Part shown: in pieces, positions 36,448-37,417 of the stretch
How positions within the stretch are numbered: position 1 is the stretch's first letter
Layout of the letters: the number at the start of each line of letters is the position of its first letter
Assembly (NCBI RefSeq): GCF_001956695.1
Contig: NZ_CP019070.1
Location: 1,612,001 to 1,676,000 of the forward strand
DNA from: Poseidonibacter parvus
GTDB taxonomy: Bacteria; Campylobacterota; Campylobacteria; Campylobacterales; Arcobacteraceae
Length of the DNA: 64,000 nt
Direction of reading: 5' to 3'
Made by a program: the position numbers and the translations under genes
The notes under the pieces: model-generated
What the model was told of the DNA's origin: nothing
What the model saw: only the letters and a program-made list of their open reading frames with translations
Database searches by the model: none

Positions 36448-37206
36448 TTATTTTAAATGCTTTTTCAAAATAATAAACCAATTATTTACATTTTTTATAT
36501 AATCTTCAATACATAAATCTTTTCTTTCTTGTGTATAATTTAATTCATCTAAAAACTTATTATACTTTTTTGGATAGCTTCCATAGGCATAACACAAAGA
36601 ATCATAGAACCTTTGTATATCTAAACTATGTTCATCTATAAAGTCATCATTTTCTAATTTATGATTATTGCTATAAAGTTTGAAAATATCTGCAGAACTT
36701 AAAAGTATATCATCACCATTTTTAAAAAGTTCTATTAACATCACAGCAGCAAAACTATCTGCAATATTCTCTTCATTCCCAACAATAGGAAGATTATAGA
36801 TGTCTATGAAGGCATGAGCAAGTTCATGTAATATAGTTTGAATCAATACATCAATACTTGCATTTTCAATGCTAATACCAGTTTTATTATATTGTACTTT
36901 TTTAAAAGTGTTAAAAGTATTTGTATAAAAAGAGTATGGAATTAATATTTTATTTGTATGATTTTCATATAAAGGACCACCATTAGAGCCAATTTCAATA
37001 AGAACTGTTTTTTCAAGTTTAAACTTATTGTTTAAAGTTGCAATAAAAGTATCAAGAAAAAAAGAATTTTCAAGTTGCTTTTTTATTTTTTCTTCATTAA
37101 AGGTATTTCCTTTTAAAAATTCTATTTTTATTTTATCTTTTGCACATAAAGTGGTTACTATAAATAGAGAAAAAATTATACTAAAAATTACTTTTTTATA
37201 AAACAT
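36448..37206 (-). CDS. Secreted zincin metallopeptidase, DUF4344-like
   Basis: A 252-residue exported protein with a signal peptide (residues 1-21, ending LCAKD). The zinc site HELAH (in QTILHELAHAFIDIY, ~134-148) is followed by EENIADSFAAVMLIEL (~157), where Glu is the likely third ligand. This E-x-x-A-D text is typical of the DUF4344 metallopeptidase-like family. Its start lies 32 bp after a strong terminator and just downstream of a putative leader-peptide unit, raising the possibility of attenuation control. Its ribosome site is weak (AAAGAAA). Confidence 0.75.
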   Translation of the reverse strand: MFYKKVIFSIIFSLFIVTTLCAKDKIKIEFLKGNTFNEEKIKKQLENSFFLDTFIATLNNKFKLEKTVLIEIGSNGGPLYENHTNKILIPYSFYTNTFNTFKKVQYNKTGISIENASIDVLIQTILHELAHAFIDIYNLPIVGNEENIADSFAAVMLIELFKNGDDILLSSADIFKLYSNNHKLENDDFIDEHSLDIQRFYDSLCYAYGSYPKKYNKFLDELNYTQERKDLCIEDYIKNVNNWFIILKKHLK

Positions 37207-37237: not shown

Positions 37238-37272
37238 AAAAAAAGGGAGTCAACATTTGTTAAACTCCCTTT
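37238..37272 (-). terminator. Rho-independent terminator upstream of the metallopeptidase gene
   Basis: AAAGGGAGT and ACTCCCTTT (37242-37250 and 37264-37272) form a 9-bp stem with a 13-nt loop. On the minus strand a seven-T run follows (37238-37244). No minus-strand protein gene longer than seven codons lies upstream, so the transcript it ends must be the small unit at 37240-37402. Confidence 0.85.
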
Positions 37273-37402
37273 ATTTAATATCTTAGTTAAATAAAACATT
37301 TATTTAACCTATCACTACATAGTGATTTAAATTATTATATTAGTTTGTAACAATACTAAAAATGTGAAACCTTCGTCATTTGCACCTCCGTATTATTTGG
37401 TT
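37240..37402 (-). ncRNA. Putative small RNA or attenuator leader upstream of the metallopeptidase gene
   Basis: Reading leftward: an extended -10 (37409-37417), a start site near 37402, a strong GGAGGTG site (37383-37389) and a 7-codon ORF. Then come two near-perfect hairpins: 37311-37326 (7-bp stem, 2-nt loop) and 37287-37307 (9-bp stem, 3-nt loop). A terminator follows. Together they predict a ~160-nt transcript. It could be a free small RNA or a transcription attenuator for the metallopeptidase gene 34 bp downstream. No known RNA family is recognised. Confidence 0.5.
37356..37379 (-). CDS. Seven-residue leader peptide MTKVSHF
   Basis: ATG at 37379 to TAG at 37356-37358 encodes MTKVSHF. 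It is preceded at ideal spacing by GGAGGTG, one of the strongest Shine-Dalgarno sequences in the window. Such a site on so short an ORF suggests that the act of translation matters, as in attenuation leaders. No run of a single amino acid codon is present, so no regulatory amino acid can be proposed. Confidence 0.45.
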   Translation of the reverse strand: MTKVSHF

Positions 37403-37408
37403 ACCAGT

Positions 37409-37417
37409 ATTATAACA
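37409..37417 (-). promoter_or_regulatory. Extended -10 promoter of the small leader unit
   Basis: On the minus strand the sequence reads TGTTATAAT: a consensus TATAAT (37409-37414) with the upstream TG of an extended -10. It points into the leader-peptide unit. The upstream region is AT-rich with no clear -35. Confidence 0.6.

Follow-up and report, generated by a model that had tools for sequence, protein, structure and literature searches.

Similar architectures in described systems

To our knowledge, few trans-acting small RNAs have been characterized in Campylobacterota. One of them, CncR1 of Helicobacter pylori, is a stand-alone RNA of ~213 nt that is activated by HP1043. The HP1043 consensus of H. 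pylori is TTTAAG-5bp-TTTAAG, at -42 to -26 (PMC8345958), and the targets of the regulator, which include the small RNA cncR1, are enriched in translation genes and responsive to translation arrest (PMC5253667). Two other groups of RNAs resemble the locus analyzed here in their build. Spot 42/SpfP, SgrS/SgrT and RNAIII/hld have their own promoter and terminator and contain a short ORF within the small RNA, and the leader-peptide attenuators trpL, leuL and metL combine a very short ORF and its Shine-Dalgarno (SD) sequence with hairpins and a terminator. Very short leader ORFs are also reported from Campylobacter jejuni, i.e., CJsORF15 (MAFY) and CJsORF19 (MMYQMR) (PMC11955535).

A predicted small-RNA gene in Poseidonibacter parvus

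The window, i.e., the whole 64,000-nt stretch of P. parvus DNA that was analyzed, carries a small-RNA element on its minus strand (37443–37238). A candidate activator box, TTTAAG-N5-TTTAAT (37443–37427), is located 12 nt before the extended -10 TGTTATAAT (37417–37409) and has the geometry of HP1043/HsrA/CosR boxes. The -10 is conserved in the promoter alignment of the copies described below; the -35 region is not sigma-70-like, yet it is conserved among the copies. From the promoter and the terminator we infer a small RNA of ~165 nt (37402–37238), starting ~7 nt after the -10, ending at the terminator U-run and predicted to form four hairpins, terminator included. The 5' hairpin (37397–37349), with the clamp AATAATAC...GTATTGTT, is predicted to enclose the SD, the start codon and the micro-ORF, and the SD pairs in the predicted fold with UUUUU at the ORF end. 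The SD itself, GGAGGTG (37389–37383), has seven bases complementary to the 16S tail, and a 7-base match of this kind was detected before only 1 of the 59 ORFs in the window. The seven-codon ORF ATGACGAAGGTTTCACATTTTTAG (37379–37356) encodes MTKVSHF and stops with TAG. Its end overlaps a near-invariant 3' arm, ATTTTTAGTATTGTT(A) (37364–37349), which is a candidate pairing or recognition segment. Hairpin 2 (37326–37311), hairpin 3 (37309–37285) and an intrinsic terminator (GGGAG...CTCCC plus T7, 37270–37238; recognized from sequence and folds) follow. A gene for a DUF4344 putative metallopeptidase (36448–37206, minus strand) begins 32 bp after the terminator, with its ATG at 37206. The 218-nt fold of the region had z = -3.5 relative to shuffles.

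An earlier note on this DNA had proposed an extended -10, a strong SD with a seven-codon ORF, two tight hairpins and a terminator followed by the metallopeptidase gene, and all these parts were located where it had placed them, on the minus strand; the hairpin enclosing the SD and the ORF had been overlooked as such. The same note had recognized no known family. Rfam 15 gave 0 matches in the window at the gathering threshold (the best weak match, E 0.25, is in the terminator), on which basis a known RNA family was rejected, and our literature searches returned no named Arcobacter small-RNA family of this kind.

Distribution in Arcobacteraceae

A total of 44 distinct copies were collected, all from Arcobacteraceae, with two in some of the genomes. 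A DNA search of 80 relatives detected copies in all 10 genomes of the same genus and in ten other Arcobacteraceae genomes. Six genomes had two copies each (G002, G003, G006, G011, G027 and G040), and in G039 a second copy was found at a contig end. A covariance model added two clear copies, i.e., G047 and the divergent G017, and when applied with strict filters to 298 genomes of the phylum it matched in Arcobacteraceae only; absence from some genera refers to 24 genomes searched individually and to the phylum sample under the stricter filters. A degenerate pattern profiled against 84,980 species genomes retrieved 20 records, which are Arcobacteraceae where the family or genus is named (Poseidonibacter, Halarcobacter, Arcobacter sp.) and otherwise uncultured Campylobacterales, Campylobacteraceae or Epsilonproteobacteria MAGs. 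A divergent version is present in 15 of 31 genomes of another genus, g10. Zero copies were detected in the viral contigs, phages and plasmids searched, and a mobile or phage-borne element was thus rejected. Matches elsewhere in the P. parvus genome (such as L002–L004) have terminator- or promoter-like similarity only and were not counted as copies.

Judged from its sequence, the element is a free-standing small-RNA gene confined to Arcobacteraceae, with a promoter and a terminator of its own that are recognizable and conserved. It is probably one member of an unnamed Arcobacteraceae RNA family that is regulatory and ribosome-controlled.

Conservation of the ribosome site and of the hairpins

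Unusually for a small RNA with an internal micro-ORF, this one is conserved best at the ribosome site, for which masking is predicted. Across 26 aligned copies, the mean pairwise identity was 98% for the SD and 94% for the 3' arm CATTTTTAGTATTGTT, relative to ~45–65% for the linker, hairpins and terminator; the terminator hairpin is kept while its sequence varies. Paralogs within the same genome showed this pattern as well, with identities of 100% for the SD and 94–100% for the arm, and mostly 40–60% for the remainder in four of the six pairs (the paralogs of G027 and of G040 are closer overall than the other pairs).

The two tight hairpins have compensatory changes at 3 of 4 (hairpin 2) and 6 of 9 (hairpin 3) consensus pairs. 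Together they account for 52 double-change cells, compared with 18 in shuffles, and their covariation score was matched by 0 of 500 shuffles and was destroyed by sliding the partner. In the 5' clamp, 97% of cells are paired in the 26 copies and all changes are one-sided, so pairing there rests on folding and on U-G-compatible substitutions. The predicted probability that the SD is unpaired was 0.167 over the 44 distinct copies, versus 0.379 with shuffled flanks and 0.326 in the lowest of 40 shuffled sets, so that SD masking in the predicted folds exceeds chance.

An SD, a 4-nt spacer, an ATG and an ORF of six or seven codons were present in 26 of 26 aligned copies, and the only substitution seen at the start codon is TTG. 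The encoded peptides include MTKVSHF, MTKDYHF, MIEVIHS, MRGIKHS and MTKEFDA, and the sole indel in the aligned ORFs is a 3-nt deletion in L021. The stop codon of the seven-codon class is always TAG or TAA. Because the conserved arm contains the stop, a retained stop counts only in part as separate evidence. The two come apart in L064 alone, where the 3' arm lies ~17 nt farther downstream and the ORF (MTGILHW) nevertheless ends at codon 8. The only near-constant residues are Met1 and, in the seven-codon class, His6, with residues 2–5 and 7 varying freely, and no sensor codons, stalling motif or run of one residue was conserved in the peptide. The third codon position varies no more than the first and second, which places selection on the RNA with its ribosome site and not on the peptide. 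In genus g10, the ORF starts with ATG or TTG and mostly has 12 codons (MTKISLFMVVKI and relatives). This different C-terminus MTKISLFMVVKI probably arises by a 1-nt shift, and the RNA arm of the 12-codon variant still pairs. The earlier note had proposed to look for the peptide and the stems in relatives; there, the stems and the element as a whole are conserved, and neither the peptide as a peptide nor the link to the metallopeptidase gene is.

Promoter classes and a candidate regulator

The motif TT[AC]AG-N5-NTTAAN was detected 11–12 nt before the -10 in 31 of the 44 distinct copies, which corresponds to the HP1043/HsrA/CosR position (~-42 to -26). Seven other copies have a TTGCTT or TTGCAT -35 instead of the box. 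They form a second paralog class (L017, L021, L039–L041, L043 and L093) with the -10 TACAAT (TATAAT in L017) and a near-identical 5' domain. By analogy, two promoter classes driving near-identical 5' domains would be the pattern of redundant trans-acting RNAs.

At other promoters of the P. parvus genome, the box plus -10 had 3 matches, compared with 6 for a reversed-pattern control, and a genome-wide HP1043-type regulon was rejected given this lack of enrichment. Control of the small-RNA promoter by an HP1043-type regulator is a lead. In L106–L108 (g10 and G026, two genera), a two-component pair ends directly before the small-RNA promoter. It comprises a heavy-metal-type OmpR-family regulator and a histidine kinase, both below NCBIfam cut-offs, and could be the regulator acting on the box.

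Genomic context and alternative explanations

Some Poseidonibacter copies (L001, L009, L012 and their duplicates) are the only ones followed by the metallopeptidase gene. At the other copies, an exonuclease, a diguanylate cyclase or an enoyl-CoA hydratase is encoded next, or the neighboring gene is convergent, as in many copies. In G008 and G009, the element is located downstream of the exonuclease gene that it precedes in other Poseidonibacter. One frequent location adjoins groESL, to which the element is convergent (g10, G026, G027, G040, Halarcobacter, L097 and L098), with distances of 0.3–2 kb to the groEL stop in L093, L097, L098, L106, L107, L108 and L113. The second frequent site is the aat region (Poseidonibacter, and also the second copy of G011). 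Genes for sensor kinases and diguanylate cyclases adjoin many copies (L016, L024, L026, L064, L093, L099 and L100), a pattern that may have no other cause than the abundance of such genes in the family. That only some Poseidonibacter have the metallopeptidase gene separating the small RNA from the exonuclease gene suggests that it was recently gained or lost. Having no evident promoter of its own, it might live on read-through.

The earlier note had suggested a translation-sensing attenuator, which here would be a leader peptide acting in cis on the metallopeptidase gene. This gene is indeed on the same strand, 32 bp past the terminator, the gap before it lacks an obvious SD or promoter, and the next gene is on the same strand in most Poseidonibacter. 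However, no downstream gene or operon is shared across the relatives: most copies have no metallopeptidase gene behind them, the next gene is convergent in many, and in G008 and G009 the element comes after the exonuclease gene. When the part that a ribosome would cover was masked in the predicted folds, the terminator was retained in L001, L016 and L023, whose folded stretches include it (that of L040 ends within the terminator), and no antiterminator appeared; the peptide also lacks any run of one residue. The varied neighbors and the terminator kept when the ribosome part is open indicate a gene and not a leader, so the attenuator was rejected and we regard it as very improbable. The other suggestion of the note, a peptide-coding small RNA, held for the small RNA, given its own promoter and terminator, unrelated contexts and paralogs, and failed for a conserved peptide. 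That the RNA has a dual function with the short peptide as the active product would agree with the retention of SD, start codon and ORF throughout the copies examined and with the TAG or TAA stop throughout the seven-codon class; it is nonetheless quite improbable, as third codon positions are no more variable than the others, residues 2–5 and 7 are free, and the 12-codon genus has another C-terminus, MTKISLFMVVKI, with the RNA arm still pairing.

Two further explanations assign the ribosome site itself a role. An exposed mimic of a translation start could titrate 30S subunits or a C/U-rich anti-SD-like small RNA, with the ORF serving only to end the ribosome visit. GGAGGTG is the most conserved block and is stronger than the SDs of nearly all genes in the window, but an SD predicted to be masked beyond chance is odd for a decoy and titrating 30S would demand very high abundance, which makes this unlikely. 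Alternatively, a ribosome parked at the 5' SD could shield the RNA from a 5' exonuclease, like STAB-SD, a known device (listed in PMC3997798), with the regulatory part elsewhere. The SD does start ~13 nt into the putative transcript; against this, only the 5' domain is strongly conserved in sequence, leaving no other obvious regulatory segment, and the SD is masked in the predicted folds, so that we also find this improbable. The pairing of a U5 run with GGAGG is reminiscent of fourU elements, in which case the hairpin would be an RNA thermometer governing the micro-ORF, but the SD helix was predicted to be only 2% open at 4 °C and 18% at 47 °C, and no Rfam family matched. The thermometer was rejected on these grounds and is hardly credible. 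An RNA titrating CsrA (of the CsrB/RsmZ kind, with ANGGA in the SD) was rejected as well, because CsrA (PF02599) is absent from the P. parvus genome; control genomes were positive.

A ribosome-gated RNA as the preferred explanation

We tentatively prefer a stand-alone small-RNA gene whose 5' hairpin is a gated ribosome site and whose RNA acts away from its own locus, which we consider plausible though short of probable. The gene, its structure, its conservation, the masking of the SD and the independence from neighboring genes are supported by sequence and predicted folds, and from these we infer transcription, opening by ribosomes, action in trans and targets. In the free RNA, the SD would be paired with the ORF end, and the clamp AACAAUA/UAUUGUU would close the loop. 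Once a ribosome had captured the SD, it would open the hairpin (AAUAAUAC/GUAUUGUU), translate seven codons and stop. Its passage would free the near-invariant 3' arm AUUUUUAGUAUUGUUA, which most likely would pair with other RNAs, away from its own locus, making the activity of the RNA dependent on ribosome availability. The 12-codon variant ORF runs past the arm, and arm release thus cannot work identically there. Hfq (PF17209) is absent from the P. parvus genome and from 20 relatives (control genomes were positive), which argues against an Hfq-dependent small RNA; any pairing would have to use a different helper or do without one.

A more specific version, in which the RNA is a trans-acting reporter of the translation state, its masked-SD seven-codon ORF is a ribosome-counting gate that exposes the pairing arm, and the gene is driven by a regulator of the HP1043 type, the targets of which increase in H. 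pylori upon a block of translation, is rather doubtful.

Comparison with known systems

A widespread and sometimes duplicated small RNA of Arcobacteraceae that is most conserved at its ribosome site allows one to ask if a micro-ORF can switch a free-standing RNA, and natural comparisons are offered by the two ORF lengths (12 and 7 codons) and by the paralogs that differ in promoter. Stav et al. 2019 included Arcobacter sp. L in a screen of intergenic regions and gave no names to motifs confined to Arcobacter (PMC6429828); the text of that study names no family of the kind described here. The lineage in which the 12-codon variant may occur is close to Arcobacter sp. L, and this variant may already be listed, unnamed, in that work.

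The small RNA resembles CncR1 in being a stand-alone small RNA from the same phylum with a promoter box of the same consensus at nearly the same position; it differs in that no sequence relation was found and in that the box is not enriched genome-wide here. The dual-function RNAs have longer, conserved peptides (SpfP, 15 aa), whereas the small RNA has 7 or 12 codons, an unconserved peptide, an SD masked by the end of its own ORF, and a host without Hfq. Unlike the leader-peptide attenuators, it has neither a conserved downstream gene nor an antiterminator and is found in unrelated contexts. If the translation-state reporter were true, the RNA would be a switch with an attenuator-like build that acts on distant RNAs.
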